Translations under genes and position numbers: made by a program
Source: Terricaulis silvestris
GTDB lineage: Bacteria; Pseudomonadota; Alphaproteobacteria; Caulobacterales; Aquidulcibacteraceae
Direction of reading: 5' to 3'
Length of the DNA stretch: 64,000 nucleotides
Assembly (NCBI RefSeq): GCF_009792355.1
Contig: NZ_CP047045.1
Span: forward strand, 620,001 to 684,000
Shown: piece after piece, positions 10,378-49,825 of the stretch
Layout of the letters: the number at the start of each line of letters is the position of its first letter
Numbering within the stretch: position 1 is the first letter of the stretch
Notes under the pieces: generated by a model
Database searches by the model: none
The model's input: the letters and a program-made list of their open reading frames with translations, nothing else
Told to the model about the DNA's origin: nothing

Positions 10378-10390
10378 TACACTGTATGTT
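10378..10390. promoter_or_regulatory. island operator copy between LLM and VOC operons
   Basis: TACACTGTATGTT differs at one base from the reverse complement of the copy at 15560. It lies in the 195-base divergent gap between the LLM operon (minus) and the VOC/E1/E2 operon (plus), 34 bases before the LLM start. A weaker variant, TTCGTACGATGTT, is at 10478-10490, nearer the VOC gene. Confidence 0.55.
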
Positions 10391-10539
10391 TTATGGAGGC
10401 AACCACAGGCCATAAGGATTGGCGGGATGCCCGCCTCAACGGGTTCCTAGCCGCAATATTAGCCGTTGCCAGGCTAATTCGTACGATGTTAGTTTATCCA
10501 ACACGGTTTTGTTTCGCGGGCCGAGCAAAGGGAGCCGAA

Positions 10540-11103
10540 ATGATCCATCACTTCGCAATCGCCGTGAAGGATTTCGACACCTCACACCACTTCTACACCG
10601 AGGTCATGGGCTTCAAGCTTGTCGCCGGCGTGAAACGCATGGCGCCGGGCGGCGGCTGGACCAAGCACATGTTTTACGACATGGGCCGCGGCAAGTTCAT
10701 GGCCATCTGGGACCTGAAGGGCATCGAAGGCGTACAAGTGCAGCCTGACGAGTGGCGCAGCGCGATCTCCAAGGGCCTGGGCCTGCCCGGTTGGATCAAC
10801 CACTTCGCGTTTGAGTGTTCAGGCGAAGAGGAAATGCAAGAGCGTAAGCAACGTTGGCTCGACGCCGGCTATCACGTCTCGGAAACCGATCACGCCTTTA
10901 TCCGCTCAATCTACACCTACGATCCGGACGGCAATTGGATCGAGTGGACCTACGATACGCGGCCGGTCAACGAAGCTGACCGGATTGAAGCTGAGGAAAT
11001 CCTCGCGGACGATACGCCGTCAACGATCCCGGATTACGAGGGAACGTTCACGCGCTCGACGGCGCAAAAATACCGTGCGCCGCCGCGCCAACCGGCCAGA
11101 TGA
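10540..11103 (+). CDS. VOC family protein (glyoxalase/extradiol dioxygenase fold)
   Basis: 187 residues; the ATG has GGGAG eight bases upstream, and the longer open frame from 10372 crosses the promoter region and was rejected. Paired beta-alpha-beta-beta-beta units carry H4, H88 and E135 (GNWIEWT), consistent with a 2-His-1-Glu metal site. It may be a metal-dependent dioxygenase, isomerase or lyase; the sequence does not decide. Its stop overlaps the E1-alpha start (ATGA), so it is the first gene of the 2-oxoacid dehydrogenase operon and probably makes or processes that complex's substrate. Confidence 0.82.
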   Translation: MIHHFAIAVKDFDTSHHFYTEVMGFKLVAGVKRMAPGGGWTKHMFYDMGRGKFMAIWDLKGIEGVQVQPDEWRSAISKGLGLPGWINHFAFECSGEEEMQERKQRWLDAGYHVSETDHAFIRSIYTYDPDGNWIEWTYDTRPVNEADRIEAEEILADDTPSTIPDYEGTFTRSTAQKYRAPPRQPAR

Positions 11104-12092
11104 GCGTGACGAAGGCCGCCGAGAAGAAGGCGTCGTCGAATCGCCGAAGCGCGGAGTTGCTCGACCTTTACGAGCGCATGGTGCTCATCCGCGAAGCTGA
11201 GCGGATGTGCGGCGTGCTGTTTGCAGAAGGCGAAATTCCCGGCTTCATTCACTTAAGCGATGGGCAGGAAGCGGTCAGCGTCGGCGTCATGGCGTCGATG
11301 ACCGCGGAGGACACCATCTCGTCCACGCATCGTGGCCACGGTCACGCCTTGGCGAAGGGATTGGCGCTCGACTCCTTCTTCAAGGAGCTGATGGGAAAAG
11401 TTGACGGCGCCTGCAAGGGGCGGGGCGGCAGCATGCACGTCGCTGACTTGTCTGTCGGGATGTTGGGTGCGAACGGCATCGTGGGCGGCGGCGTTGCGAT
11501 CGCGGTTGGCAGCGGCCTGGCCCACAAGCTGCGTGGCGGAGACGCTATCGCGGCATCTTTCTTTGGCGACGGAGCGCTGGCGGAAGGCGTGTTCCACGAA
11601 TCCCTCAACATTGCTTCGTTGATGCAGATTCCGGTGCTGTTCGCGTGCGAGAATAATGGCTGGTCGGAGTTCAGCCCGACCAGCACGCAAATTGTGTTCT
11701 CGCTCGAAGATCTCGCGGCCGCGCACAAAATCGACTACCGCCGCGTCGACGGCAGCGACCTCGAAGAAGTCTCGGCGGTTGCATCGGAAATTATCGACGC
11801 CATGCGTCGTGACCGGCGCCCCAGAGTGCTTGAGTGCATTACGGTCCGCGCGCGCGGGCACTTCGAGGGCGACGCGCAACGCTATCGCGGCGCTGGACCG
11901 GCGCCCGTCGATCCGTTGGCAAAAACCCGCTTGTTGTTGGAGGAGGCCGGCGCGTCAGCCGGCGACCTCGATCAATTGAGCGAACGCGCACGCACCCAGG
12001 TCGCGGCTGCAATCGAGGCCGCGCGCCGCAGCGATGAGCCGACGCTGCAATCGGCGGCGGAAGAAGTTTACGCGCAAGGGGTGAAGCCATGA
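11100..12092 (+). CDS. 2-oxoacid/acetoin dehydrogenase E1 component, alpha subunit
   Basis: 330 residues of the thiamine-diphosphate-dependent dehydrogenase alpha family. The TPP/Mg motif runs from GDG at 156-158 to NN at 185-186, and the THRGHGH loop is near residue 76. It would decarboxylate a 2-oxoacid, or cleave acetoin, and hand the acyl group to lipoyl-E2. ATG overlaps the VOC stop and its own stop overlaps the E1-beta start, both as ATGA. The substrate (acetoin, pyruvate or a branched 2-oxoacid) is not fixed by the sequence; the compact length favours the acetoin-dehydrogenase group. Confidence 0.87.
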   Translation: MSVTKAAEKKASSNRRSAELLDLYERMVLIREAERMCGVLFAEGEIPGFIHLSDGQEAVSVGVMASMTAEDTISSTHRGHGHALAKGLALDSFFKELMGKVDGACKGRGGSMHVADLSVGMLGANGIVGGGVAIAVGSGLAHKLRGGDAIAASFFGDGALAEGVFHESLNIASLMQIPVLFACENNGWSEFSPTSTQIVFSLEDLAAAHKIDYRRVDGSDLEEVSAVASEIIDAMRRDRRPRVLECITVRARGHFEGDAQRYRGAGPAPVDPLAKTRLLLEEAGASAGDLDQLSERARTQVAAAIEAARRSDEPTLQSAAEEVYAQGVKP

Positions 12093-13069
12093 GCGCGAGC
12101 GCCGTTCGATTGGGCCACGTCATCAACCGGGCCTTGGATGATGCATTGGCCCGCGACTCGACCGTCGTGCTGATGGGCGAAGACATCGGCAAAGCCGGTG
12201 GTTCGTTTGCCGTGACGCGCGGCCTTCAGGAAAAGCACGGGCGTGCGCGCGTCATCGACATGCCAATTTCGGAGAACGCCATCGCGGGCATGGCCGTGGG
12301 TCTGGCGCTGAGCGGCTATCGGCCCGTTGTCGAAATCATGTTTATGGATTTCATCGCCCTGGCGATGGATGCCGTCGTCAACCAAGCCGCGAAACTGCAC
12401 TTCATGTTTGGCGGGCAGGGCGCGGTGCCGCTCGTCATCCGCACGCAACATGGCGGCGGCCTGAACGCCGGCCCACAGCATTCGCAGTGTCTGGAGGCGT
12501 GGTTCGCACACATACCCGGTTTGAAAGTTGTGTGCCCGGCGACTTTGGACGACGCGTATGCGCTCCTGCAGGCGTCGATCGATGATCCCAATCCCGTGAT
12601 CTTCATCGAGCACAAGTCGCTCTATGCGATGAAGGGCGAGTTGTCCGCGCCGCCGCCTGAGGCGCGGCTCGGCGTTGCGAACATCGTTCGCCCAGGGACG
12701 GATGTAACGATCGTGACCTACGGGGCCATGGTTCAAAAAGCACTGGCCGCGGCGGATCGGCTCGCGCAGGAGTCCATCGACGCGGAAGTGATCGACCTTC
12801 GCACTATCCAGCCATGGGACGAAGCGACCGTGTTGGAATCGCTTTCGCGCACGCATCGGCTTGTGGTGGCGCATGAGGCGGTCGAGGCGTTCGGCGTCGG
12901 TGCCGAGATCGCCGCGCGGATGGCGCACGTTGGTTTTGACGAACTCGACGGTCCGATCGTGCGCGTAGGCGGCGCCTTCATGCCGGTGCCTTTCGGGCGC
13001 GGGCTGGAAGCGGCGTATCTCCCCGGCGAAGCACAAATCGTTGAAGCCGCGCGGTCGACCTATGGATAG
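12089..13069 (+). CDS. 2-oxoacid/acetoin dehydrogenase E1 component, beta subunit
   Basis: 326 residues, pairing with E1-alpha in an alpha2-beta2 thiamine enzyme. It contains the conserved MGEDIG near residue 30, the ISENAIAG cofactor-contact segment near 60, and the C-terminal transketolase domain with DLRTIQPWD near 235. Length and segment order are normal for the family. It overlaps E1-alpha by 4 bases and E2 by 8, so the three subunits are translated in tight coupling. Confidence 0.88.
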   Translation: MSASAVRLGHVINRALDDALARDSTVVLMGEDIGKAGGSFAVTRGLQEKHGRARVIDMPISENAIAGMAVGLALSGYRPVVEIMFMDFIALAMDAVVNQAAKLHFMFGGQGAVPLVIRTQHGGGLNAGPQHSQCLEAWFAHIPGLKVVCPATLDDAYALLQASIDDPNPVIFIEHKSLYAMKGELSAPPPEARLGVANIVRPGTDVTIVTYGAMVQKALAAADRLAQESIDAEVIDLRTIQPWDEATVLESLSRTHRLVVAHEAVEAFGVGAEIAARMAHVGFDELDGPIVRVGGAFMPVPFGRGLEAAYLPGEAQIVEAARSTYG

Positions 13070-14282
13070 TGCGCAATCCTTGGATGCCGAGCTTCCCATC
13101 GTGATGCCCAAGCTGGGGCTGACGATGCAGGAAGGCGTGCTAGCGGAATGGCGCGTCGAGCCTGGCGACGAAGTCGTTGCGGGCCAGATCATATTCGTCG
13201 TCGAGACCGATAAGATCAGCAACGAGATCGAAGCGCCCGCGGCAGGACGCATTACGCGGCTGCTGGCGGAGACCGGCGCGACGATCGAGGTCGGCGCACC
13301 GGTTGCGCTTTGGACCGGGCAGGCGCAGCGCGCCGCCGATGCAAGCAGTGCGGCGGTGCAAGCTTCGCCGCGCACCGGCATTGAGCGCGCTCCGTTGCGT
13401 ACGGCCGCCGAATCCGGCGGGCGCTTGCTCTCGACACCGATTGCCCGGCGCATGGCCGCGCTGCACAACATCGCGTTGGCGAGTGTGACGGGCACAGGCC
13501 CGCGTGGGCGCATCCAGGCTCGCGATGTCGAATCCGCAATTGGTCAACGCGGCGCCATTGTGACCGCGCAGGTTGCACGCATTCGGCCCGATTTGACGCG
13601 CGAACAGGAGATGCGCCGCCTCATCGCTCAGCGTTTGTCGCGGAGTAAGGCGGAGATACCTCACTTCTATCTCTCGGCGGACGCCAAGTTCGATGCGTTG
13701 GCTGCGCTACGCGAGGATTTGGGAAGGGACCCGGCCGCGCCGAAACTGAGTGTGACGGCGCTTTTTGTCGCCGCCATCGCGCGGGCGTTGGCGGAACATC
13801 CTGATGCCAATGTCGTATGGCGCGGCGACATTGCCACGCCGCTGGCCGCGATCGGCGTGGGCGTTGCGGTCGAAACGCCGCTTGGCGTCATGGCGCCGGT
13901 GCTGCAAGACGCCGATAAGCTTGCGCCGCGCGAGCTCGCGGCGGCGATGGCGGGCGCGATCGAGCGCGCGAAGGCGGGAAAGATGCGCCCTGGCGATGCG
14001 GCGCCCGCCGCGATCAGCATTTCCAATGTCGGCATGTTTGGCGTGCGTTCCCTCACGCCGATCATCGATCCTGATCAGACCTACATTCTCGGCGTCGGCG
14101 CCCCGCAGCATGTTGTCCGGCCCGACGCGCGCGGAAAGCCAAGCGCCGTCCGCGAAATTACGCTGACACTCGCGTGCGATCACCGCGCCGTCGACGGCGC
14201 GCCCGCGGCGCGGCTGCTGTCGACAATCGTCAGCCTGATTGAAAGCCCGTCGCGTCTGCTCATTGCGCGCGCTGGCGCTTAG
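13062..14282 (+). CDS. Dihydrolipoamide acyltransferase (E2) of the 2-oxoacid dehydrogenase complex
   Basis: 406 residues from the ATG inside the E1-beta stop region (8-base overlap). Domain order: lipoyl domain (about 11-85, lipoylated lysine K51 in ETDKISNE), a linker rich in Ala, a peripheral-subunit-binding domain (about 127-165, STPIARRMAA), and a catalytic acyltransferase core ending in DHRAVDG with H374 and D378. It transfers the acyl group from lipoamide to CoA. No E3 gene lies nearby, so the complex must borrow a lipoamide dehydrogenase from elsewhere. It converges on the SnoaL gene with a 4-base overlap. Confidence 0.9.
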   Translation: MDSAQSLDAELPIVMPKLGLTMQEGVLAEWRVEPGDEVVAGQIIFVVETDKISNEIEAPAAGRITRLLAETGATIEVGAPVALWTGQAQRAADASSAAVQASPRTGIERAPLRTAAESGGRLLSTPIARRMAALHNIALASVTGTGPRGRIQARDVESAIGQRGAIVTAQVARIRPDLTREQEMRRLIAQRLSRSKAEIPHFYLSADAKFDALAALREDLGRDPAAPKLSVTALFVAAIARALAEHPDANVVWRGDIATPLAAIGVGVAVETPLGVMAPVLQDADKLAPRELAAAMAGAIERAKAGKMRPGDAAPAAISISNVGMFGVRSLTPIIDPDQTYILGVGAPQHVVRPDARGKPSAVREITLTLACDHRAVDGAPAARLLSTIVSLIESPSRLLIARAGA

Positions 14283-14809
14283 GGCTTGTCCGCGAACACC
14301 CAGTAGAGCGGATCCTCGGGCACGGAACCGCCTTGCGTCTTGATCTTGGCGTACGGACCATTGACCCAATCGGCAGTGCTCGGTCGCATCGAGTACATGT
14401 CGCACGTGAGCGTGCGCTCGATGATGCGCCATTCTTCGCCGCGCTTCTCGAAGCGGTCGAGATAGCGGCCGTGGATGATGAAATCCTCCCGCCCGGTCAC
14501 GACAGTGCGTTCGTGCGCCGCGATATAATAGGTTTCCGCGTGCGCCGCGCTCGGGCTCGCGAACTCCACAAGGATGTTGCCGAGCATGTGATGCGTGCGC
14601 ATGTCGGCGGTGAGCGCCAGAGAGAAATCGAAGAAGTCCGAGACCGGTCCTGAAAAGCTTAGGTGATTGTCAATGGCCTCAGGCCAGTAGGCGGTCGCTA
14701 GAATAGCCCGGTCGCGCCGATCCATGCCGCGCGAATAGCGCATGAGGCATTCGCGGATCGCTTCTTTGTCCAGCAATTGCTGCAGCGCGCTGTGCTCTTC
14801 GGTCGCCAT
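14279..14809 (-). CDS. SnoaL/NTF2-like protein
   Basis: 176 residues with the NTF2-like cone fold of the SnoaL_4 kind: an N-terminal helix with LLDKEAIRECLMRYSRGMDRRD, then mixed beta strands with HHMLGNILVEF and GRYLDRFEKRGEEWRI. Related proteins act as dehydratases, isomerases or small ring-hydroxylation partners; the function here is unknown. It lies 11 bases after the nitroreductase gene, in the same operon, and converges on the E2 gene. Confidence 0.8.
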   Translation of the reverse strand: MATEEHSALQQLLDKEAIRECLMRYSRGMDRRDRAILATAYWPEAIDNHLSFSGPVSDFFDFSLALTADMRTHHMLGNILVEFASPSAAHAETYYIAAHERTVVTGREDFIIHGRYLDRFEKRGEEWRIIERTLTCDMYSMRPSTADWVNGPYAKIKTQGGSVPEDPLYWVFADKP

Positions 14810-14820
14810 CTTATCCTCGA

Positions 14821-15552
14821 TTATTCGATGAACCGGACGACTTCGCTCAAATCCGTGCGCGTCGTGCGGAAGCTGTTGGCGGGATGATCGGGGTCTTCAT
14901 AGCCAAACGAGACTGCGCACACGATCTTTCGGTTGGCCTGAATGTCGAAATAGTCACGAACAAAATCCGCGCAACCCGCCAGTGCCGCTTGCGCAATCGT
15001 GGCCAAGCCAAGGCTCTGCGCGGTCAGCATCAGGTTGGCCAGATAACTTCCGCAATCGATGGCGCCGTAGATTCCCAAATCCTCCTCGGTGGTGAGAATC
15101 ATAACGTGCGGCGCGCCGAAGAGGCGGAAGTTTTCCAGGACCTGACGGCCCGAACCTTCGCGATCGCCCTGAACGACACCCACGCTGCGGTAGAGCGCCC
15201 AGCCGGTTTCGCGCTGACGCTCCTTGTAGACGCCGACATAACGAAGCGGGAATGGGAAGTCCGGTTCCTCGCGACGTTCGCGCTGATCGGCCCAGTTCGC
15301 TTGCGACGCGTGCGCGTAGAGCGCGTCGCGGAACGCGTTGGTGGCGTCGCCCTCGGTAACGATCACTTGCCAAGGCTGCGAGTTGCACCACGAAGCCGCG
15401 CCCTGGGCAGTGCGCAGCATCGTCTCGATCACCGCTCGCGGCACAGACTGCGGAAGGAAGCCACGGCAAGAGCGGCGCGCCGCGATGAGCTGCGCCAAGA
15501 CTTGCGCTTCCAGACCGTTAGCCGCGCGGTCGCTTGGGAGTGGCTCAATCAT
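14821..15552 (-). CDS. Nitroreductase family protein
   Basis: 243 residues from the ATG at 15550-15552; an ATG four codons upstream falls inside the repeat at 15560. The FMN-binding segments RRSCRGFLPQ (near residue 30) and WCNSQPWQVIV are typical of nitroreductase/BluB-like enzymes. Members reduce nitro groups, quinones or enones with NAD(P)H. The leader is very short because the operator-like repeat ends 8 bases before the start codon; no ribosome site is visible, so leaderless translation is possible. Confidence 0.8.
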   Translation of the reverse strand: MIEPLPSDRAANGLEAQVLAQLIAARRSCRGFLPQSVPRAVIETMLRTAQGAASWCNSQPWQVIVTEGDATNAFRDALYAHASQANWADQRERREEPDFPFPLRYVGVYKERQRETGWALYRSVGVVQGDREGSGRQVLENFRLFGAPHVMILTTEEDLGIYGAIDCGSYLANLMLTAQSLGLATIAQAALAGCADFVRDYFDIQANRKIVCAVSFGYEDPDHPANSFRTTRTDLSEVVRFIE

Positions 15553-15559
15553 ACCATAT

Positions 15560-15572
15560 AACATACAGTGTT
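15560..15572. promoter_or_regulatory. island operator copy between nitroreductase and TesB operons
   Basis: AACATACAGTGTT is an inverted repeat with four-base arms (AACA / TGTT) and a five-base centre. It is the best-formed copy of the repeat shared by the island's divergent promoters. It lies 8 bases before the nitroreductase start and 112 bases before the TesB start. Confidence 0.6.
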
Positions 15573-15683
15573 TGCGGCAACGGGCGATAGCGCAGCAACT
15601 ACTCCCGCACGGCCTGAAGCGTTGGAGGCGTTGATCAGCCTATCAGTGAGTGGTAACGGATTGAGGCGGAGGACTAGATCAAG

Positions 15684-16607
15684 TTGACGGCTGCAGGCGA
15701 CACTCCTCGCGAAACCTGCCGGGATGCGCGCCTCGGCATGCTGCGGCACGTCATCGAAGACCTTCTCAGCATTGAACCTGCGGGTGCGGATCGGTTTCGG
15801 GCGGCCAAGCAGTCGGACGTGTTCGATCGCGTCTATGGTGGCCAGATGCTCGCACAGGGGCTCAGGGCGGCGGCGGCCACCGTTGATGGCGCCCGCCCAC
15901 CAAACTCGGCGCACTGTTACTTCCTTCGCTTGGGCGACCCAACCGTCCCGCTTGAGTTTCATGTCGAGCGCGTGCGCGAGACGCGGACATTCTCCAACCG
16001 CTTGGTGCGCGCTCAACAGAATGACCACTGCGTGTGCCTGATGATGTTTTCGTTTTGCGCCGCGGGCGAGGGATTGGAGCATCAGTGGGCCATGCCGGAT
16101 GCGCCGGCGCCGGAGACGCTTGCGTCGCGTGATGAGCAGCTGATCGCGATCCACGGCGACGAACTGCCGTTGAACGCTGGCGTTCCTTGGCCGGTCGATA
16201 TTCGCCACGTCAATCGACGGCCATGGGATCCAGAGATTGGCGAGGGGCGCAATCTGCTCTGGATGCGCGCGGACGACGCGCTGCCAGACGATCCGCTCCT
16301 GCACGCGTGCCTGCTCCTCTATGCGAGCGACCTTACCATGGCCGAGGCCGCAACGGCGCGACATCCGATCCGTTGGGAGGATCTCATCGCCGGACGCGGC
16401 ATATTCGGGGCTTCGCTTGACCACAGTTTCTGGCTGCATCAGCCCGTCCGCTTCGACGACTGGCTGCTGCACGTGCAAGAATCTTCGCGGGGGGGCGGCG
16501 GGCGCGGTTTCACCACGGGCCGCTTCTTTGATCGCGGCGGTCGGCTCATAGCCTCCGTCGCGCAGGAAATCTTCATCAAGGAAACGACCGAAGGGAGTGG
16601 ACGATGA
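15684..16607 (+). CDS. Acyl-CoA thioesterase II (TesB family)
   Basis: 307-residue double-hotdog thioesterase; the start is a TTG preceded by GGAGGA with a 10-base spacer. An ATG at 15738 would give a length closer to E. coli TesB but lacks a ribosome site. The motifs VYGGQMLAQGL near residue 50 and the C-terminal ASLDHSFWLH and the dyad region are present. It hydrolyses acyl-CoA to free acid and CoA, probably to recycle CoA or release an intermediate. It overlaps the downstream acyl-CoA synthetase by 4 bases, an odd pairing of opposing activities. Confidence 0.87.
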   Translation: MTAAGDTPRETCRDARLGMLRHVIEDLLSIEPAGADRFRAAKQSDVFDRVYGGQMLAQGLRAAAATVDGARPPNSAHCYFLRLGDPTVPLEFHVERVRETRTFSNRLVRAQQNDHCVCLMMFSFCAAGEGLEHQWAMPDAPAPETLASRDEQLIAIHGDELPLNAGVPWPVDIRHVNRRPWDPEIGEGRNLLWMRADDALPDDPLLHACLLLYASDLTMAEAATARHPIRWEDLIAGRGIFGASLDHSFWLHQPVRFDDWLLHVQESSRGGGGRGFTTGRFFDRGGRLIASVAQEIFIKETTEGSGR

Positions 16608-18157
16608 GCGACAGCGTCCATGATTGGGTATCTTATCACGCAGGCCGCCGTCCGGACGCGCCGGCCGTCACGAGCGTGGAGCGTGGGCGCACCGCAACTT
16701 GGGGCGAGATGGAGGCGCGCGTGGCGCGCTTGGCCCATGTGCTGCGTCACGACATGGGGCTTGAGCGCGGTGACCGCGTCGCCACGATCGCAGAGAACGA
16801 CATCCGCACGTTCGAGCTGCAATTCGCGTGCATGCGCGCGGGGCTCATCTTGGTGCCATTGAACTGGCGTCTCGCTGTCGGCGAGCTGGTCACGTTGATG
16901 CACGACGCCGAGCCCTCCATCATCGTCTACGATGATACGTGGAGCACGACCGCCGAAGCAGTGGCGGAAGCGGCGGACATCCAGTTGCGCCTTTCATGGG
17001 GTGATGCATCGGACGTCAGCGAGTACGAGGCGCTGATGGACGCCGGCGACGCGGGGATGCCTGGTGGCGTGCATGACGAGGCCGAGATCACGCACATACT
17101 CTATACGTCGGGCACGACCGGCTTGCCGAAAGGCGCCATGTGCAGCCACTGCTCACTAAAGCAGCACGCGATCAATCTCGCACACGCATCGCGCCTCGCC
17201 GAACGCGGCAACAACCATCTCAATGTCGTACCGCTGTTCCACGCCGGTGGTCTCAATACCTACACCAATGCCACGCTGTTTTGGGGCGGGCAGGTCACCA
17301 CCGTGCGCCGGTTCGATCCCGCCGTCGCTTTGAAGCTGCTGACCGATCCGAAGGTCGGCATCACTCATATGTGCGGCGTGCTGCAAATGTACGAAATGAT
17401 CACCGCCTTGCCACAGTTCGCGGGCGCCATGTTTCCGGCTTTGAAAACGGCGCTGTTCGGGGGCTGGGGACCGCAAACGAAATGGGTGCATGAGACCTGG
17501 CGCGCGCGGGGATTTTTTCTGCAACTCTCGTACGGTTCGACGGAGTGCGGCCCGATCGTCAGCGTTCTCGAAGCGGGCGACGAGCTCGCGTCGAAGAATT
17601 GCTCTGGTTCGGTTGTGGCAGGCACGCAGGTGCGACTGGTTGATCGCGAAGGCGCCGATGTTGCCCAAGGCGAGGTGGGAGAAATTTGGGCGAAGGGCGG
17701 CGCTATCACGCCAGGCTATTGGCGGCGCCCGCGCGAGGACTACTTCAGCGGTGACTGGTTCAAGACGGGCGATTGCGCGCGCGCCGACGAAGCTGGCCGG
17801 CTCTACATCGTCGATCGCTTGCGCGAAGTGTATCGCTCCGGCGGCGAGAACGTTTACCCGGCGGAAGTGGAGCTTGTCCTGGCGCAGGCGCCGGGTGTGA
17901 AAGAGATCGCGGTCATCGCCGTGCCCGATCAGAAATGGGGCGAAGTTGGCCTTGCGGTGGTGCAGTCTCACGAGGGCGCGAGCGTGACGCTTGAGAGTTT
18001 GCTTGCGCATGCCGCCGACAAGCTGGCGCGCTACAAGCAGCCAAAATACCTGGTTACGATCGAAGAAATGCCGCGCAACGCGACGCTCAAGATCGATCGC
18101 ACTGCACTGAAGAACGCCCATGGCGGCGTGGCCGCCGTCGCGGCGCCCGCTAACTGA
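16604..18157 (+). CDS. Acyl-CoA synthetase (AMP-forming), copy 1
   Basis: 517-residue ANL-superfamily ligase activating a carboxylic acid to acyl-AMP and then acyl-CoA. YTSGTTGLPKG, the A3 phosphate loop, is at 167-177; SYGSTECGP forms the A5 motif; DWFKTGD and the hinge YIVDRLREVYRSGGENVYP follow; the C-terminal lysine lies in NATLKIDR. Length is normal. ATG overlaps the TesB stop, and the gene converges on the hydrolase at 18150. It is a paralog of the ligase at 38538, with the same HAGGLN segment; the acid activated is not identifiable. Confidence 0.9.
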   Translation: MSDSVHDWVSYHAGRRPDAPAVTSVERGRTATWGEMEARVARLAHVLRHDMGLERGDRVATIAENDIRTFELQFACMRAGLILVPLNWRLAVGELVTLMHDAEPSIIVYDDTWSTTAEAVAEAADIQLRLSWGDASDVSEYEALMDAGDAGMPGGVHDEAEITHILYTSGTTGLPKGAMCSHCSLKQHAINLAHASRLAERGNNHLNVVPLFHAGGLNTYTNATLFWGGQVTTVRRFDPAVALKLLTDPKVGITHMCGVLQMYEMITALPQFAGAMFPALKTALFGGWGPQTKWVHETWRARGFFLQLSYGSTECGPIVSVLEAGDELASKNCSGSVVAGTQVRLVDREGADVAQGEVGEIWAKGGAITPGYWRRPREDYFSGDWFKTGDCARADEAGRLYIVDRLREVYRSGGENVYPAEVELVLAQAPGVKEIAVIAVPDQKWGEVGLAVVQSHEGASVTLESLLAHAADKLARYKQPKYLVTIEEMPRNATLKIDRTALKNAHGGVAAVAAPAN

Positions 18158-18995: not shown

Positions 18996-19005
18996 TGGGC
19001 CGCGT

Positions 19006-19758: not shown

Positions 19759-19775
19759 GCGTTGCTCCGGGAGAC

Positions 19776-21569: not shown

Positions 21570-21583
21570 AACAGTACAGCGTT
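21570..21583. promoter_or_regulatory. island operator copy between SDR operon and SRPBCC gene
   Basis: AACAGTACAGCGTT has arms AACA/CGTT and a six-base centre. It lies in the 77-base divergent gap, 38 bases from the SDR start and 27 bases from the SRPBCC start. Its CAGCGTTAG core is shared with the copies at 29134 and 49813. Confidence 0.55.
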
Positions 21584-21609
21584 AGGTTGGCTAGTGTTTG
21601 GAGGGCTTC

Positions 21610-38345: not shown

Positions 38346-38452
38346 AATGTCTCCTTGTCGACATCCGCGAGGTCTAAATCAACGGCCGCTAGGTTTAATA
38401 CCAAATGGTTTGCAAGGAAAGTGGCAACGCCTTGAACGCTGTTGCAATAGAA

Positions 38453-38465: not shown

Positions 38466-38537
38466 AGGATTAAGCCCACTACCAGCGTGGCTGGGTGTGT
38501 GTTTTCAGTTTGGCGCGCTCTCCAAGGGAGGCAGGCG

Positions 38538-40082: not shown

Positions 40083-40099
40083 ACGGCGAGGGAGAACTA

Positions 40100-41272: not shown

Positions 41273-41285
41273 CAGGCGATTGGTT

Positions 41286-41897: not shown

Positions 41898-41915
41898 GCG
41901 GGTGAGGAGCGCTCC

Positions 41916-42677: not shown

Positions 42678-42686
42678 GGCGTTGCG

Positions 42687-43289
42687 ATGAATGTCGTCAT
42701 CATTGGCGCTACCGGCAAAGCCGCAGCGCGGCTCATCTCTGAATTGACGCGCCGCGCGCACGCCGTCCGCGGGCTGGCGCGCCATGTTGAAGGCGCCGAC
42801 ATCGGTATTCCACTCTTGCAAGTGGACGCGAATGACCGTGCCGCGCTTGCGCACGCCGTGCGGGGCGCCGATGCCGTGTTTCTCTCTGCGCGTTTCGTTT
42901 CGGTGCAGTCGGCACCAGTGATTGGCGCGATGCAAGATGCGGGTGTCCGGCGCTTGCTCGTGGTTGGCGGCGCGGGCTCGCTCGAAGTGTCGCCCGGCGT
43001 ACAGCTGCTGGACACGCCAACGTTTCCAGATGTGGCGCGGCCAGAATCCCAGGCGGGCCGCACGTTTCTTGCCGCGCTCAAGGCCAGCGACCTCGATTGG
43101 ACCTTCCTTTCGCCGCCGCTGTCGTTCGGACCCGGTGATCGCACCGGCACATATCGTTTGGGAGGCGATCAACTGATGCGCGACGACAGCGGCGCGAGCG
43201 CGATGTCGTACGAGGATTTCGCCAAGGCGCTCGTCGATGAACTCGAAACATCCGCGCACACGCGCCGGCGTTTTACCATCGCCTACTAG
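42687..43289 (+). CDS. NAD(P)-binding NmrA-like/SDR-atypical protein
   Basis: 200 residues with the atypical-SDR Rossmann start IIGATGKAAARL and GADAVFLSA; LLVVGGAGSLEV follows. Members act as NAD(P)H-dependent reductases or redox sensors with no fixed reaction. It lies 9 bases after the SDR and 9 before the FAD-dependent dehydrogenase in one operon. Confidence 0.8.
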   Translation: MNVVIIGATGKAAARLISELTRRAHAVRGLARHVEGADIGIPLLQVDANDRAALAHAVRGADAVFLSARFVSVQSAPVIGAMQDAGVRRLLVVGGAGSLEVSPGVQLLDTPTFPDVARPESQAGRTFLAALKASDLDWTFLSPPLSFGPGDRTGTYRLGGDQLMRDDSGASAMSYEDFAKALVDELETSAHTRRRFTIAY

Positions 43290-43298
43290 GAGGCTCGT

Positions 43299-44969
43299 TT
43301 GACGCCCATCACTGTCGGCGCCGCCGAAGACGTTGACTGGGACGATTCGGCGGACGTCGTTATCGTCGGCTATGGCGGAGCGGGCGCGTGTGCCGCGCTA
43401 TCGGCGCGGGAGAACGGCGCAGACGTCCTGATCGTCGATCGCTTCGGGGGCGGCGGAACGACGGCATTCAGCGGCGGCGTGATCTATGCGGGTGGCACGC
43501 GGTTTCAGCGCGAAGCCGGTTATGAGGACAACGCCCAGCAGCTCCGCGATTATCTGGCGATTGAAGTCGGGCAGGTGGTGAAGCCTGAAACACTGGCGCG
43601 ATTCTGCGAAGGCAGCGCCGCCGACGTTGAATGGCTCGTGAGCCACGGCGTCGAATACGCCTCCGATGTCTTCCTCGAAAAGACGACGTTCCCGCCCGAG
43701 GGCAAGTATCTCTACTTTTCCGGCAACGAAAAAACGCCGGCCAACGCAGTGCGTACACCGCCAATACCACGCGGACATCGCGCTGTCGGCGCGGGCTACG
43801 GCGGTCAGTATTATTTTGCGGCGCTTTCCAAAGCGGTGGATCGCTCAGGCGTGCGCGTGCGGCGTCACGAGAAAGCGAGCAGCCTTGTCGTCGATCGCGC
43901 CGGGCGCGTGGTGGGGGTCGAAGTGATGAGTGTGCCGGAGGCGCATCGCGCTGAGCACCAGGCGCTGCACGCGAAAGCGAGCCCGTCGCTGCCGCATAAC
44001 AACAAGGCGGTCGAGCGTTTGCGCCAAGCCGCCATCGCGCTGGAAGAGAAAGTGGTCGAGCCCAAGCGCATCCGCGCGCGCCGCGGCGTGGTGCTGACAA
44101 CCGGCGGGTTCACGTTCAACCAGGACATGTTGCGCGGCGTCGATCCGAGTTTTGCCCGGCATTACCTCAAACTGCATAATCTCGCCACGCTCGGCAATGA
44201 CGGCGCGGGTGTGGCTCTCGGCCAATCCGCCGGCGGCGCCATCGGGCGGATGGATCAGCTCTACATCGCCCGCAACATCGCCCCGCCGGAAGCAGCGGTC
44301 GAAGGCGTAATGGTGAACCAAGAAGGCCGGCGTTTTGTCAACGAAGACGCGTACACCTCCGCTGTTGGTGGCGCGATCGCCAAGCAGAGTGATTGCCGTG
44401 CGTGGCTGATCCTGTCGCCGAAAAGCTTCTGGACCGCCGTGCGTCAGGCGATGTTCTGCGGCTGGCATCGGTTCAAATTCTTCGGCTTGCCGAGCCTGAT
44501 CAATTTCGCGCTCGGCGGCACCAAACGCGCTTCAAGCATCCGGGGCATCGCACGCGCTTGCGGCGTCAACGAAGCGGCACTGCGCGCGACACTCTCGGCG
44601 CACGATCGCGCGATTGCCGAACAGCGCACCGATCCCGGCGGCAAGAACGAGGCATACTGCGCACCAATGGGTGAGGGGCCGTTCTATGCGATTAGTATGT
44701 CGCTTTCGAACGGCTTTGCGCTGACGCCATTCATGACGCTCGGCGGACTGAAGGTCGATGAAGAGACTGGCGCCGTGGTGCGCGAAGACGGCGCCCCAGT
44801 CGCTGGACTCTACGCCGCGGGGCTCTGCGCCGTTGGGCTGCATTCCAACGGCTACATCAGCGGTATTTCGCTGGCTGACGGCGTGTTCTCTGGCCGCCGC
44901 GCGGGCCGCTCCTGTGCACTAAGCCCATCACGCGCGGGGCATCCGTTGCCCGAAACGCTACCATTGTGA
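43299..44969 (+). CDS. FAD-dependent dehydrogenase (fumarate reductase / 3-ketosteroid delta1-dehydrogenase family)
   Basis: 556 residues from a TTG directly after AGGAGG. It has the N-terminal FAD dinucleotide motif VIVGYGGAGACAAL (about 20-34) and the C-terminal GLYAAGLCAVGLHSNGYISG segment of the FAD_binding_2 family. The size and soluble form fit delta1-dehydrogenases and related ene-reductases acting on ring ketones; the catalytic residues of KstD are not clearly conserved, so the substrate is open. It overlaps the OYE gene by 4 bases, suggesting opposing or sequential C-C bond redox steps. Confidence 0.82.
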   Translation: MTPITVGAAEDVDWDDSADVVIVGYGGAGACAALSARENGADVLIVDRFGGGGTTAFSGGVIYAGGTRFQREAGYEDNAQQLRDYLAIEVGQVVKPETLARFCEGSAADVEWLVSHGVEYASDVFLEKTTFPPEGKYLYFSGNEKTPANAVRTPPIPRGHRAVGAGYGGQYYFAALSKAVDRSGVRVRRHEKASSLVVDRAGRVVGVEVMSVPEAHRAEHQALHAKASPSLPHNNKAVERLRQAAIALEEKVVEPKRIRARRGVVLTTGGFTFNQDMLRGVDPSFARHYLKLHNLATLGNDGAGVALGQSAGGAIGRMDQLYIARNIAPPEAAVEGVMVNQEGRRFVNEDAYTSAVGGAIAKQSDCRAWLILSPKSFWTAVRQAMFCGWHRFKFFGLPSLINFALGGTKRASSIRGIARACGVNEAALRATLSAHDRAIAEQRTDPGGKNEAYCAPMGEGPFYAISMSLSNGFALTPFMTLGGLKVDEETGAVVREDGAPVAGLYAAGLCAVGLHSNGYISGISLADGVFSGRRAGRSCALSPSRAGHPLPETLPL

Positions 44970-46045
44970 CCGACACGTTATTCGCACCGCTGTCGCTCCG
45001 GCACGGCCGTCCATTGCGGCACCGACTGTGGTTGGCGCCACTCACCAATCTACAAAGCAACGATGACGGCACGTTATCGGATGACGAGCTTCGTTGGCTG
45101 ACCTTGCGCGCGAGCGGCGGCTTTGCGTTGGCGTTGACATGCGCCTCACACGTGCAAGCAATCGGCAAAGGCTTCCCTGGGCAGTTGGGCGTGTTCTCCG
45201 ATGCGCACCTGCCTGGGCTTTCCCGACTGGCGCGCGCCATCTCCGCGGAGGGTGGACTTTCCGCAGTTCAGTTGCAGCATTCGGGCATGCGCGCGCCGAG
45301 AGGACTTATCGGAGGCGCGCCTGTCGGCGCGTTCGACGACGCGAAAACCGGAACGCGCGCACTCTCAACCGGTGAGGTCGAGCAAGTCGTAGAGGACTTC
45401 ATTGTCGCCGGTCTTCGCGCCCAGTGCGCGGGTTTTGACGGCGTGGAAATCCATGGCGCCCACGGCTATCTGCTTTGCCAATTTCTTGATCTCGGGCGCA
45501 ACACCCGTGCGGATAAGTACGGCGGGTCTCCGGAAAACCGCGCGCGCATGTTATTTGAGATCATAAGCGGACTACGCGGCCGTGCGGGCGCTGACTTTCA
45601 GATTGGCGTGCGGATCTCGCCGGAACGCTACGGCGTCGATTTTCACGAAGCGCGTGCGTTGGCGGCGAGGCTTATGGCGAACGACGCCGTGGACTATATT
45701 GACTTGTCGATGTGGGATGTACGCAAGGCGCCCTCCGACGCCGCCTCTCAAGTCAAGCCCCTGCTTGACTACTTCATCGACCTCGAGCGCCATGGTTGCC
45801 GTTTGTGCGTCGCCGGCAAGATCATGGGCGCGGCCGATGCGCGATGGTGCCTGGAGCAGGGCGTGGACGCGGTTCTGATCGGGCGCGGCGCAGTGCTGCA
45901 TCACGATCTTCCTCGCCGCATCGAGAGCGATCCGACCTTTGTCGCCGCGCCTAGACCAGTTACGCGCGACTACCTTCGCGCCGAGGGCTTGGGCGAACGC
46001 TTCGTGGACTACATGGCCAGTTGGAAAGGCTTCGTAGCCGATTGA
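44966..46045 (+). CDS. NADH:flavin oxidoreductase (old yellow enzyme family)
   Basis: 359-residue single-domain FMN TIM barrel from a GTG overlapping the previous stop. GFDGVEIHGAHGYLLCQFLD and NTRADKYGGSPENRARM are hallmark segments; the substrate-binding pair is in the HGAHG region. It reduces an activated C=C bond with NAD(P)H. Unlike the protein at 6123 it has no FeS or FAD domain. Last gene of the seven-gene operon; it converges on the PQQ dehydrogenase. Confidence 0.87.
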   Translation: MTDTLFAPLSLRHGRPLRHRLWLAPLTNLQSNDDGTLSDDELRWLTLRASGGFALALTCASHVQAIGKGFPGQLGVFSDAHLPGLSRLARAISAEGGLSAVQLQHSGMRAPRGLIGGAPVGAFDDAKTGTRALSTGEVEQVVEDFIVAGLRAQCAGFDGVEIHGAHGYLLCQFLDLGRNTRADKYGGSPENRARMLFEIISGLRGRAGADFQIGVRISPERYGVDFHEARALAARLMANDAVDYIDLSMWDVRKAPSDAASQVKPLLDYFIDLERHGCRLCVAGKIMGAADARWCLEQGVDAVLIGRGAVLHHDLPRRIESDPTFVAAPRPVTRDYLRAEGLGERFVDYMASWKGFVAD

Positions 46046-46060: not shown

Positions 46061-48106
46061 TTATTCCTCGCCGCGCCGTTGCGATTGCCGTGCGTGCCGC
46101 AGGACGTAGGCGCGGATGTTTTCCGCCTCGCGCGGTGTCAGCACATCTCTGAACGCGATCATACCGTTGTCTTCTAGCGCGCCATCAATGACGACAGAGC
46201 GCCAGAGTTCTTCGCTGCGCAGCGCGCCAGAGCGGCGGAGGTCAGCGTTGTAGGCAACCGACGCATTGCCGCCGTGGCACGTCGCGCACGTGCGATTGTA
46301 TTCGGCCATGCCCAAGTCCGCGTTACCTCTGCTGGTAATGCCGGTGACATCGATCGGTGCGGACGGCGGCGGATCATAGGCCGGCGCCTCTGCTGTGCCG
46401 CCAAGGCGGAACACTAAGAGGCGGCCCGGCATACGTGGGCGGTCGGGGACAACGCGTCCGACGATGGCTCCAGCGCCGCCGAAGCCAACCATAATCGCGA
46501 TGTATTGCTGGCCATTGATCCGATAGCTGATCGGGGGCGCGATGATGCCGGTACCTGCGTCGTAGGACCAAACTTGCTCACCGTTCGTTGCGTCATACGC
46601 CACCAGGTGACCTTCGGCGTTGCCCTGAAACACGAGATCGCCGGCGGTGACGAGCGTACCACCGTTCAAGAAGTATGGATGCTCGACTGTCCAGCGCGCG
46701 CGGCCGGCCACCGGATCCCAGGCCACTAATTGCCCCGTTGTCGCCGCGCGAATGGCCGCGAGTTGATCTTGCGGGAATTCCGGCAGCTGGATCGCCACGT
46801 TTTGTCCGACCGGCCGGCGCTGGAAGTTCGGATCGCGCGCATATCCGCCGCCCATCAATTGCACCGGAATGTACACGAGCCCAGTGCGCGGGCTGAATGA
46901 CATGGCCTGCCAGGAATGCGCGCCGAATGGCCCCGGCTGCAGCAACGCCGTGCCGGTTTGGTAATGCGCATTCTCCGCCAAAATCGGACGGCCGGTTTCC
47001 ATGTCAACGCCAGTGGACCATGTGACGGGCGCATAGGGCGTCGCGGAGAGGAGTTCGCCGGTTCGCCGGTCGAGAACATAAAAATAGCCGTTCTTCGGCG
47101 CTTGCATGAGCACGTCGCGCTCTTGGCCGTTGATGGTCAGCCGCGTCGCAATCATGTGCTGCGTGGCCGTGTAGTCCCACGAATCTGACGGCGATGTCTG
47201 GTAGTGCCAGACGTAGGCTCCGGTGTCCGGATTGACGGCGACGATCGACGACAAGAACAGATTGTCGCCTTGACCGCCCGAGCGGCGATAAAAGTCGAAC
47301 GGACTTCCGTTGCCGGCGCCAATGAAGAGCAGGTTGGTGTCGGGATCGTACGTCATCGAATCCCACGCGGTGCCGCCGCCGCCGCTGATCGTCCATTCGC
47401 CGGGGGACCAGGTCTGCTGCACGACGTCGCGCATGACGTCGTCAGACGCCGCGCCGTCGGCGCGCCCTTCCGGGTTCGGCGTCAGATAGAAGCGCCAAGC
47501 TTGCTCCCCGGACGCCGCGTCATATGCGGTCACGTAGCCGCGCACGCCGAACTCAGCGCCGGCATTGCCGATGACAATTTTGTCCTTCACGACGCGTGGC
47601 GCGCCAGTAATCGTGTAATGCCGTCCCGGCACGCTATGATCGACGGTGTCGACCGACCAAACCAACTCGCCCGTGCGCGAATTCAGTGCGATGAGACGCC
47701 CATCCAGCGTACCGACAAAGACGCGATCCCTTCGCAGGGCCACGCCACGATTGACCGCGTCGCAACACGCGTCCGCCAACGCCTCGCGCGGCACCTGCGG
47801 ATCATAGCTCCACAACAACTCGCCGGTTTCGGCGTCCAGGGCGTAGACGACGGACCATGCAACACTTGTGTAAATCACGCCGTCCGCTTGGATCGGGGTC
47901 GCTTCCTGCCCGCGGTCGCTCTCGAACTGGTAGTGCCACGCAAGCCCAAGCTGGGCGACATTCTCGCGATTGATCTGATCGAGCGGACTGTAGCGTTGCT
48001 CTTGATGATCGCGGCCGTGTAGAGCCCACTCATCAGTCGAAGCTTGTCCGCACGAGGCGAGGATAAGCGCCGTGCTGGCCAGTACCGCCGCCGCAAGTTT
48101 CTTCAT
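46061..48106 (-). CDS. PQQ-dependent quinohemoprotein alcohol dehydrogenase, predicted lipoprotein
   Basis: 681 residues from the ATG that lies six bases after GGGGG. The N-terminal signal MKKLAAAVLASTALILASC ends in a lipobox LASC (C19). An eight-bladed PQQ propeller carries the vicinal Cys114-Cys115 pair and WDYTATQ; a C-terminal cytochrome c domain has CATCH (607-611) and probable axial M649. It oxidises a primary or secondary alcohol in the periplasm, passing electrons to a cytochrome. No PQQ synthesis genes are in the window. It lies 18 bases after the aldehyde dehydrogenase. Confidence 0.9.
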   Translation of the reverse strand: MKKLAAAVLASTALILASCGQASTDEWALHGRDHQEQRYSPLDQINRENVAQLGLAWHYQFESDRGQEATPIQADGVIYTSVAWSVVYALDAETGELLWSYDPQVPREALADACCDAVNRGVALRRDRVFVGTLDGRLIALNSRTGELVWSVDTVDHSVPGRHYTITGAPRVVKDKIVIGNAGAEFGVRGYVTAYDAASGEQAWRFYLTPNPEGRADGAASDDVMRDVVQQTWSPGEWTISGGGGTAWDSMTYDPDTNLLFIGAGNGSPFDFYRRSGGQGDNLFLSSIVAVNPDTGAYVWHYQTSPSDSWDYTATQHMIATRLTINGQERDVLMQAPKNGYFYVLDRRTGELLSATPYAPVTWSTGVDMETGRPILAENAHYQTGTALLQPGPFGAHSWQAMSFSPRTGLVYIPVQLMGGGYARDPNFQRRPVGQNVAIQLPEFPQDQLAAIRAATTGQLVAWDPVAGRARWTVEHPYFLNGGTLVTAGDLVFQGNAEGHLVAYDATNGEQVWSYDAGTGIIAPPISYRINGQQYIAIMVGFGGAGAIVGRVVPDRPRMPGRLLVFRLGGTAEAPAYDPPPSAPIDVTGITSRGNADLGMAEYNRTCATCHGGNASVAYNADLRRSGALRSEELWRSVVIDGALEDNGMIAFRDVLTPREAENIRAYVLRHARQSQRRGEE

Positions 48107-48124
48107 GACCATCCCCCGGGCGGT

Positions 48125-49606
48125 TCAGATTGGCGCTGTGGGCTCTTCGTTGAGAATAACGGTCTTGCTTTCGAGATAAGGAAGCAGGCCAGATCGACCG
48201 CCCTCTCGCCCGATGCCAGAGCGCTTGAAGCCGCCGAAGGCGATGCCGAAGTCGCTGCGAAAGCCGTTGTGCCCCACAGTGCCGGACCGCAATTGGCGCG
48301 CGACTTTCATCGCTCGATTCACGTCCGCGGTGAACACCGAGTTGTTGAGCCCGAAGTCAGTATCGTTAGCGATGGCGATGGCGTGATCCTCGTCGCGCGC
48401 CGGAATTACGCAGATCACCGGGCCGAAAATTTCCTCGCGCGCGACCTTGGCCTCGTGCGGGACATTGGCGAAGAGAGTCGGTTGCACGTAATAGCCGCGG
48501 TTCAGGCCTGGCGGGCGCGCGCCGCCTGTGGCGAGCGTCAGTCCTTCGTCCTTGCCGCTGGCGATATAGCCTTCGACACGATCAAGCTGCCGGCGCATTG
48601 CCAGCGGTCCCATCTGCGTTTCAGGGTCGAGCGGATCGCCGACGCGAATCTTCTTCATTGCCGAGACGAGTCCGTCGACCAATTCGTCATGCCGACGCTG
48701 TGGGATCACGACGCGGCTCAGGGCCGAGCAGAATTGCATGGAAAGCGAGCTGAGTTGCGGAACGATCGACTCGATCACGATATCGAGCGGAGAATCGTCC
48801 AAGACCACCGCCGCCGATTTGCCGCCGAGCTCCAAAGTGGCGCGCGCCATGCGCGACCCGCAAATAGAGGCGACACGCTGGCCAACCGCGCTTGAGCCGG
48901 TGAAGCTGATCTTATCGACATCGGGATGGCGCACCAACGATTCAGATTCCTCGCGGTCGGCCATCAGCAAATTGACGACGCCTGGCGGCAAGCCAACTTC
49001 CTCGAAGATCTCGCCCAAAAGTGTCGCGGCGAGCGGCGCCTCCGGCGACATCTTCGCCACCACCGTGCAGCCGGCGAGCAGAGCCGGGGCGATTTTTGAG
49101 CCAAGCATCATAAGCGGCGCGTTCCACGGGATGATCGCGCCAACGACGCCCACGGGCTCGTGAATGAGAAGGCCGACCGCGCCGCCGGCGGTTGGCGTGT
49201 GGCGCTCCACAAACTGGAATGTGGAGGCGAGATTGGCGTAGTCGCGGAAGAGCGTGGCGCCGACTATGCCCATAAACAAACCGTGCGCCGCGAGACCGCC
49301 GACCTCGTGAGTCCAGATCGAGCCGAATAACTCTTTCTCTGCTTCGATCTTGTCGGCGATTTTGTGTAGGTAGGCAGCGCGTTCGGCGTGGGAAAGTCGC
49401 GGCCATTCGCCGTGATCGAACGCCTCGCGGGCCGCGGCGACCGCGTCGTCGATGTCCTGCTCCGTCGCGCAGGGGACAGTCGCGTACACGCTCTCGTCCG
49501 AGGGCGTAATGATGTCGAACATCCGCCGGCCGACGGGCGTCACCCACTTGCCGCCAATGAAGAAGCGGCCCTGCTTGATCCGATTGAGCCTGCTGCCGAC
49601 GCTCAT
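48125..49606 (-). CDS. Aldehyde dehydrogenase family protein
   Basis: 493 residues, standard ALDH length. Catalytic residues: N162 in IPWNAPL, E259 in LELGGKS, and C293 in SMQFCSALSR. The cofactor-lysine segment is VAKMSPE, with Met-Ser in place of the usual Pro-Ala. It oxidises an aldehyde to an acid with NAD(P). First gene of a two-gene operon with the PQQ alcohol dehydrogenase, so the pair would convert an alcohol to a carboxylate ready for CoA ligation. Confidence 0.92.
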   Translation of the reverse strand: MSVGSRLNRIKQGRFFIGGKWVTPVGRRMFDIITPSDESVYATVPCATEQDIDDAVAAAREAFDHGEWPRLSHAERAAYLHKIADKIEAEKELFGSIWTHEVGGLAAHGLFMGIVGATLFRDYANLASTFQFVERHTPTAGGAVGLLIHEPVGVVGAIIPWNAPLMMLGSKIAPALLAGCTVVAKMSPEAPLAATLLGEIFEEVGLPPGVVNLLMADREESESLVRHPDVDKISFTGSSAVGQRVASICGSRMARATLELGGKSAAVVLDDSPLDIVIESIVPQLSSLSMQFCSALSRVVIPQRRHDELVDGLVSAMKKIRVGDPLDPETQMGPLAMRRQLDRVEGYIASGKDEGLTLATGGARPPGLNRGYYVQPTLFANVPHEAKVAREEIFGPVICVIPARDEDHAIAIANDTDFGLNNSVFTADVNRAMKVARQLRSGTVGHNGFRSDFGIAFGGFKRSGIGREGGRSGLLPYLESKTVILNEEPTAPI

Positions 49607-49812
49607 GAGGCCTCCCTGGTCCTCCGACTTAGGGAGGAGCTCAATTTGCGGGAGAAACTAACGGCGTATTGTTCTTGTAGCAAGACTCATTTGTATTCCG
49701 AGCACCTCGCTGCGGTGTAGTTTGCCTTACAATCAGCGACACGCTTCAAATCACTCCGGTAAAGCGCGCCGCGCCTGCCTTCCGGTCCCCGAGGAATTCG
49801 GTTCACAAGCCT

Positions 49813-49825
49813 AACGCTGTATGAT
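49813..49825. promoter_or_regulatory. island operator copy between ALDH and TonB receptor 2 operons
   Basis: AACGCTGTATGAT (arms AACG/TGAT) shares the CTAACGCTGTA core with the reverse complements of the 21570 and 29134 copies. It lies in the 304-base divergent gap 49607-49910, 86 bases before the receptor start. I see nothing else recognisable in that gap, and no gene. Confidence 0.5.

Follow-up and report, generated by a model that had tools for sequence, protein, structure and literature searches.

A TetR-family regulator and its predicted operators in a catabolic gene island of Terricaulis silvestris

A 64,000-nucleotide stretch of the Terricaulis silvestris chromosome (C1:620001-684000 of the 3.86-Mb genome; hereafter, the window) carries a large catabolic island between approximately 5 and 55 kb, as judged from family and profile assignments of its genes. 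The island encodes TonB receptors, acyl-CoA ligases, CoA-transferases, enoyl-CoA hydratases, OYE-type reductases, P450s, a PQQ-alcohol dehydrogenase, an aldehyde dehydrogenase, a LeuCD-like dehydratase, an FMN reductase, RibBA and two LLM-type monooxygenases; a third LLM-type gene is found at -1.3 kb, negative coordinates denoting positions to the left of the window. Genes were called with a simple codon-model script in the 560-744 kb region and in twelve 20-kb stretches elsewhere in the genome, and the gene starts are approximate accordingly. A preliminary description of the window reported an inverted repeat recurring in eight intergenic regions and named the TetR-family gene at 37680, here called TetR1, as its best-candidate reader. 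We find that the repeat is very probably the operator of TetR1, and probably also of its paralog TetR2, and that TetR1 would repress the island operons until released by a ligand.

To find the motif without supervision, expectation maximization was run on 11 promoter gaps of the 5- to 55-kb region, with 14 dinucleotide shuffles and 14 equally large sets of 11 gaps drawn from the rest of the genome as nulls. At a width of 16, it returned AAccAtACAgcGTTAG with a log-likelihood of 68.4, as opposed to maxima of 53.6 in the shuffles and 54.6 in the real-gap sets. At a width of 12, the corresponding values were 46.8, 42.1 and 43.3. When each of the eight named gaps was left out of the training in turn, its score ranged from 11.7 to 22.3, in every case higher than that of any of the 92 gaps taken as background from other parts of the genome. 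Thus, all eight gaps contain the motif, and it is stronger there than expected by chance.

Within the island, matches to the motif are predominantly intergenic. At a score of at least 11, the island contained 11 intergenic and 2 coding matches, whereas 240 kb of sampled background contained 2 and 4, respectively; the matrix used for these densities was trained on nine of the sites, and the leave-out scores are the clean figures. From 55 to 64 kb, the matrix scan found no intergenic match even at a score of 6. A degenerate consensus matched the whole genome exactly eight times, with seven matches in the island; since it was drawn from these sites, the test is partly circular and measures specificity rather than discovery. 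The outlier, at 3763827, is inside a parB gene and was dismissed as a chance match, and ACAGCGTTAG at 3314171 was rejected with no matrix match of at least 9 in the surrounding 20 kb. Allowing one mismatch added 37 matches, among them two intergenic island sites (619758 and 669658) and a coding one (670030), and the reversed control pattern gave 63 matches with up to one mismatch versus 45 for the pattern itself. The concentration in the island holds for exact matches but not for the total that includes one-mismatch matches.

Seven sites had leave-one-out scores of 15.6 to 22.6 (Table 1). The copies at 10378 and 15560 are identical at 12 of 13 bases in opposite orientation, and CAGCGTTAG is common to those at 21570, 29134 and 49813, just as the preliminary description stated. 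Two of its further copies, at 29109 and a weaker one at 2622, are not sites, the best matrix scores in these regions being -3.6 and -3.4. Its placement of the sites in promoter gaps between divergent operons was borne out for the named gaps, but the exception it made for the 29.1-kb gap was not: an EthD-domain gene (28311-28799) lies on the minus strand, and this gap is therefore divergent too, making eight out of eight. Likewise, the proposed regulon is island-wide, but its left limit is not at 5.3 kb (the right one having been put at 54.8 kb): it reaches approximately -11.6 kb, beyond the window. The 52.0- to 52.5-kb gap before the P450 and RibBA genes (52.4 kb) had no good site of its own in the matrix scan (best score, 6.7).

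Table 1. Predicted operators, regulated operons and regulator. Operators are given as 19-bp predicted sites scored with a 16-mer matrix; leave-one-out (LOO) scores were obtained with the matrix built without that site.
Feature	Position	Strand	16-mer start	Score or basis
Predicted operator, LLM-type monooxygenase operon (minus)/glyoxalase-2-oxoacid dehydrogenase operon (plus)	10373..10391	-	10376	LOO 22.6
Weaker candidate second site, same gap, ahead of glyoxalase gene if its start is 10540	10498..10513	-		matrix 12.3
Predicted operator, nitroreductase (minus)/thioesterase (plus)	15559..15577	+	15559	LOO 19.6
Predicted operator, SDR operon (minus)/polyketide-cyclase-like gene (plus)	21570..21588	+	21570	LOO 20.6
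Weaker predicted operator, P450 (minus)/DUF7064/7065 gene (plus)	24138..24156	+	24138	LOO 12.2
Weaker second predicted operator, P450/DUF7064 gap; the copy of the preliminary description	24229..24247	+	24229	LOO 10.5
Predicted operator ahead of TonB-dependent receptor 29228	29129..29147	+	29129	LOO 19.9
Predicted operator, LLM/CoA-transferase/LeuCD-like operon (minus)/enoyl-CoA hydratase 36871 (plus)	36729..36747	+	36729	LOO 18.0
Weak candidate second site, same gap as 36729	36820..36838	+		9.3; TTG at -35 distance
Predicted operator, TetR1 (minus)/acyl-CoA ligase operon (plus)	38452..38470	+	38452	LOO 15.6
Predicted operator 2, aldehyde dehydrogenase/TonB gap; absent from the preliminary description	49655..49673	-	49658	17.3, matrix not trained on it
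Predicted operator 1, aldehyde and PQQ-alcohol dehydrogenases (minus)/TonB receptor-P450-RibBA (plus)	49808..49826	-	49811	LOO 20.4
Left-flank site ahead of LLM gene	-242			15.7
Left-flank site between TetR2 and ligase	-7223			10.9 (weak)
Left-flank site ahead of TonB receptor	-11555			14.2
TetR1, predicted reader of the operator	37680..38345	-		PF00440, PF02909, fold model, ortholog-operator clustering
Predicted regulated operon: SDR, OYE-type reductase, CoA-transferase III, LLM monooxygenase	5328..10344	-
Predicted regulated operon: glyoxalase, E1 alpha, E1 beta, E2 of 2-oxoacid dehydrogenase	10540..14282	+
Predicted regulated operon: SnoaL-like protein, nitroreductase	14279..15564	-
Predicted regulated operon: thioesterase, acyl-CoA ligase	15738..18157	+
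Predicted regulated operon: hydrolase, enoyl-CoA hydratase, two SDRs	18150..21532	-
Predicted regulated operon: SDR, P450	22059..24067	-
Predicted regulated operon: DUF7064/7065, APH-type kinase, limonene-epoxide-hydrolase-like, MFS	24278..28314	+
Predicted regulated operon: LeuD- and LeuC-like dehydratase, HMG-CoA-lyase-like, CoA-transferase III, LLM	31431..36714	-
Predicted regulated operon: acyl-CoA ligase, hydrolase, FMN reductase, SDR, NAD(P)-binding, FAD dehydrogenase, OYE	38538..46045	+
Predicted regulated operon: PQQ alcohol dehydrogenase, aldehyde dehydrogenase	46061..49606	-
Predicted regulated operon: TonB receptor, small ORF, P450, RibBA	49821..54795	+

The dyad had been described as a 13-mer centered on motif position 8, but the symmetry axis is at position 10, 2 bp away. 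Complementary pairs about position 10 made up 50, 56 and 63% in T. silvestris, sphingomonad and actinobacterial sites, respectively, as opposed to 32, 36 and 40% about position 8, in a sample of 13, 17 and 10 sites hand-chosen from matrix matches, mostly intergenic with scores of at least 11. The predicted operator is a 19-bp imperfect palindrome, AAYCnnACAnYGTnnGRTT, and the fuller palindrome is clearest in the actinobacterial sites.

Many of the sites overlap promoter-like elements. Among the 14 T. silvestris sites considered here (the ten main ones, the three on the left flank and the weak one at 36820), eight have a TTG beginning 9 or 10 bases before the motif, compared with a mean of about 0.3 per position. 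This is the position of a -35 box 17 to 18 bp from a -10 made by the TAGnnT end of the motif; at 10373..10391, 18 bp separate the TTG from the -10 that the site overlaps. In the sphingomonad relatives, TTG is found at 17 in 5 of 17 sites. Because many sites overlap the spacer and -10 of sigma70-like promoters, TetR1 probably represses sterically until a ligand from the pathway releases it. The same overlap makes it rather improbable that the TetR protein is an activator or a dual regulator, a role that would suit the six sites without a clear -35 at the expected distance. Could the motif simply be a core-promoter signature of this genome? The TTG at -35 distance and the GTTAG/-10 overlap do explain part of its right half, but none of the 92 promoter gaps sampled elsewhere reaches island-gap scores, a result on which we rejected this as the whole explanation. 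The symmetry about position 10 and the recurrence beside actinobacterial TetR orthologs would also be unexpected for a promoter element, and we regard this explanation as extremely improbable.

TetR1 belongs to the TetR family: its N-terminal helix-turn-helix scores 38.8 bits against PF00440 (cut-off, 24), and its C-terminal ligand domain scores 22.7 bits against PF02909 (cut-off, 21). The structure model has a TetR-like all-helical fold (pLDDT, 83.7), with 6rxb_D as the best Foldseek match (E value, 2e-6; TM score, 0.64 by query length). Across 11 orthologs, the helix-turn-helix residues are nearly invariant, and the C-terminal half is variable. That TetR1 orthologs in several other genomes sit among the same operator supports TetR1 as the probable reader. 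An island-wide regulon read by TetR1 also withstood two checks proposed in the preliminary description, namely intergenic versus coding match density and conservation of the sites in relatives.

It is very unlikely, if marginally less so than the core-promoter explanation, that the motif is read by another regulator of the window, namely TetR 4771 (the gene given as 4675 and ranked second in the preliminary description), AraC 1045 or MarR 55325. All three lie within the window, but none has a site of at least 9 in its upstream gap: the best scores were 0.8 for TetR 4771 (4614-4810), -2.5 for AraC (843-1084) and 1.3 for MarR (55753-55980). Furthermore, TetR 4771 is only 16 to 18% identical to TetR1, the MarR gap has inverted repeats of its own, and it is TetR1 orthologs that accompany the motif in other genomes. 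The MarR-family gene (PF01047, 56.7 bits; 55325-55980 region) is divergent from a hydrolase gene, and the gap between them holds AATCGC-2-GCGATT and other short inverted repeats, likely a separate, predicted MarR operator. Another repeat different from the island motif, an 11-nucleotide inverted repeat with 82% complementarity (TCAAATTGACA/TGTCAAAATGA; 56714-56738), precedes a third TonB receptor gene at 56793.

TetR2, a 62%-identical paralog of TetR1, is located at -8.0 to -7.3 kb (L006:11971-12669, corresponding to C1:611971-612669), divergent from a second acyl-CoA ligase gene, as if the TetR1-ligase pair had been duplicated. This arrangement raises the possibility of two linked regulons, with TetR1 and TetR2 reading different subsets of sites and TetR2 owning those on the left flank. 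The sites in its neighborhood are weaker variants (10.9 to 15.7), and two residues differ in the recognition-helix region (R42/S and I44/F). However, one matrix finds both groups of sites, and most recognition residues are common to the two proteins. We consider two regulons unlikely, though by a wide margin the most credible of these alternatives.

We evaluated conservation of the operator in a scan of public genomes for TetR1 and TetR2, which yielded 17 loci: five in sphingomonads, four in actinobacteria and eight distant ones. Best-segment identity to the query proteins was 61 to 80% in the sphingomonads and 44 to 54% in the actinobacteria, and copies of the operator surround the TetR1 orthologs of Sphingomonas, Nocardia and Amycolatopsis. 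The sphingomonad loci contain orthologs of many island genes in rearranged order, and the matrix trained on the window finds sites in the new junction gaps. At least one relative has a site scoring 11 or more in the gap orthologous to each of seven of the eight; the 29.1-kb gap is the sole exception, the orthologous genes in L042 and L044 reaching 10.6 only. The LLM/glyoxalase gap has a site of 22.4 in Y57, Root720 and G626; the SDR/cyclase gap scores 15.8 in Y57 and 15.7 in G626; and the nitroreductase gap and the orthologous P450 have sites of 16.4 and 13.3, respectively, in Y57 and of at least 11 in G626. Upstream of the orthologous enoyl-CoA hydratase, scores were 16.0 (Y57), 14.2 (Root720) and 12.5 (G626). 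The TetR/ligase gap has a site of at least 11 in the same place in Y57, Root720, L042, L043 and G626, and the aldehyde dehydrogenase/TonB gap has two sites in Root720 and L043, as in the window.

These sites are also clustered. A 60-kb stretch of Root720 contains 10 intergenic matches of at least 11 (9 distinct) and 2 coding ones, as opposed to 0 and 1 in 100 kb of its background; the script put some genes on the wrong strand in GC-rich relatives, and coding and intergenic labels there are approximate. The cleanest test is G626 (5.9 Mb), which was found afterwards and not used in building the pattern. All four of its genome-wide exact matches are within 27 kb of the TetR1 ortholog. Its 18 matrix matches of at least 11 (16 distinct places; four called coding) all fall between 1112 and 1160 kb; the remaining 52 kb of the 100-kb stretch has no such match, and neither has 100 kb of background. 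A Mycobacterium avium plasmid carries a 45%-identical TetR1 ortholog together with an AMP-ligase gene and, 3 bp from the end of the ortholog as in the window, a gene of the enoyl-CoA hydratase family. The strongest site there (18.6) precedes a gene whose identity to the hydrolase at 40100 is 57%, and of the other places scoring at least 11, one is in a gap and one inside a gene. Around this ortholog (L078:4373-34898) are several TetR/AcrR genes, P450s, LLM genes and limonene-epoxide-hydrolase-family genes. The actinobacterial clusters under the same operator (L048-L050 and L059-L064) consist mostly of other genes (KshA-like Rieske oxygenase, thiolase, epoxide hydrolase and lactonase), although a few have homologs in the sphingomonad islands, one being a thiolase-family protein at about 52%.

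Counts in the carrier genomes were less uniform. They are exact matches to a looser pattern set after the loci had been seen to ±10 kb, so that only matches outside the loci are independent (for example, five in Nocardia, three in Y57 and two in Root720). With this limit, the fraction of matches lying beside the TetR gene on its contig was 5/5 in Amycolatopsis, 6/8 in Nocardia nova, 2/3 in Pseudonocardia, 1/2 in Rhodococcus triatomae, 6/9 in Sphingomonas Y57 and 5/11 in Root720. The TetR1 orthologs of Amycolatopsis and N. nova are 42 to 47% identical. The reversed pattern gave no match in the four actinobacteria and three to nine in the five sphingomonads. Across 40 relatives, the pattern gave 0 to 8 matches per genome among the matches listed, scattered as judged by eye only.

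Several observations, beginning with the post hoc choice of the looser pattern, weigh against the motif as the operator of TetR1. In two RYN assemblies, only 2/6 and 1/6 matches are beside the TetR gene, and in Novosphingobium nzgw533, as far as they could be placed, none of seven is on the TetR-carrying fragment; in these three assemblies, the reversed control gave four to nine matches, about equal to the pattern. The nearest sites upstream of TetR are approximately 1 kb off in N. nova, and at the Novosphingobium locus the nearest upstream match (10.0) is approximately 1.3 kb away. In T. silvestris itself, the 24-kb gap is the weakest of the eight (11.7, with the background reaching 10.7), as is the TetR2/ligase site among those on the left flank, and the ECH/ACAD operon at 2694, whose Sphingomonas orthologs sit downstream of the TetR1 site, lacks a good site (best score, 7.5).

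TetR1 resembles the tetracycline repressor TetR in family and fold, with PDB classes A, B, D and G among its best sequence and fold matches, and in the divergent layout of regulator and target. TetR and tetO control one resistance gene pair, whereas here many predicted operators are spread over approximately 60 kb of catabolic genes. Against the curated tetracycline repressor model NF010319, TetR1 scores 66.4 bits, well below the equivalog cut-off of 265. The island half-site TG(T/A)T(A/T)G resembles the tetO half-site, TGATAG, with the main change at +3. Compared with the tetO 13-mer, the T. silvestris sites agree on average at 7.1 of 12 positions and two sites of relatives at 11 of 12, with a background mean of 2.8, a descriptive comparison since the sites were preselected by a related motif. 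Of the TetR residues compared, Arg28, Tyr42, His44 and Lys48 are kept as Arg33, Tyr47, His49 and Lys53 in TetR1, and Gln38 and Pro39 are changed to Gly43 and Ile44; Thr40 aligns with Ser45 and Trp43 with His48. For the contacts of TetR we drew on PMC7102968, PMC2723105 and PMC4575469; in tetO, Arg28 is reported to form a hydrogen bond with the +2 G and Gln38 with the +3 A (PMC7102968). In the island operator, the +2 G is 97 to 100% conserved, and the arginine that reads it is kept in TetR1, whereas +3 is T in 85, 79 and 50% of the T. silvestris, sphingomonad and actinobacterial half-sites. Operator base +3 and residue Gln38/Gly43 thus appear to have changed together, a putative co-variation.

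Other members of the family offer further parallels. ActR, SimR and other Streptomyces TetR-family repressors are high-ranking PDB relatives of TetR1 by sequence and fold; ActR and SimR guard antibiotic export, in contrast to TetR1 in its catabolic island. In actinobacterial steroid catabolism, KstR and KstR2 each act as one TetR-family protein on many operators over a catabolic cluster and are released by a pathway CoA thioester, much like the scheme proposed for TetR1. However, TetR1 scores only 20.9 bits against the curated KstR model NF033703 (cut-off, 280), KstR2 is a weak PDB match (E value, 9e-5), and the operator letters of KstR and KstR2 differ from those of the island. Literature searches, at the level of title listings and abstract openings, returned no published report of this regulator-operator pair.

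Three LLM-type monooxygenase paralogs (9274-10344, 35665-36714 and -1344 to -274) accompany the FMN reductase at 41286 and RibBA at 53647, which suggests a heavy demand for reduced FMN. Neither family nor literature searches yielded a name for the pathway substrate; to propose a cyclic isoprenoid- or steroid-like compound would be guesswork.

With the operator before nearly every gene set, and with the same operator and repressor found together in other bacteria, the island of approximately 60 kb looks like a single co-regulated unit. A TetR1 dimer would bind the 19-bp palindrome and, lying over the spacer and -10 of a sigma70-like promoter, keep RNA polymerase off. Release would come from a small molecule derived from the pathway, possibly the substrate itself or an acyl-CoA, and would switch on the genes for uptake (TonB receptors), activation (ligases) and breakdown together, TetR1 included. 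What the computation establishes is the motif with its enrichment, symmetry axis, conservation in relatives and clustering around TetR1 orthologs; TetR1 binding, repression, autoregulation and the ligand are inferred.

TetR1 is rare, and its occurrence is patchy. In a sample of 397 other genomes from the host's order, no match to TetR1 exceeded 39% identity, and 3 of 397 genomes of the Sphingomonas family sampled around Root720 have one at an E value of 1e-40 or better, a distribution that would fit a horizontally spread island. Homologs of the hydrolase at 40100, 44 to 56% identical, occur in 69 further genomes of the order (with the host, 70 of 398), and parts of the pathway therefore exist without TetR1. 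Tentatively, and with rather less than even confidence, TetR1 may represent a catabolic branch near the tetracycline repressors, in which a tetO-like operator code hardly altered across two phyla, in contrast to the ligand domain and the genes under control; the island may then be a self-contained regulon, repressor and operators together, traveling into hosts whose kin lack the regulator.

At the locus itself, some fifty unannotated catabolic genes can now be viewed as a single predicted regulon for which the regulator is named and the operators are exactly placed. This gives a handle on the substrate, as the ligand should be a pathway compound. It also provides a natural comparison with TetR and tetO, in which residue 38 and operator base +3 would have changed together.

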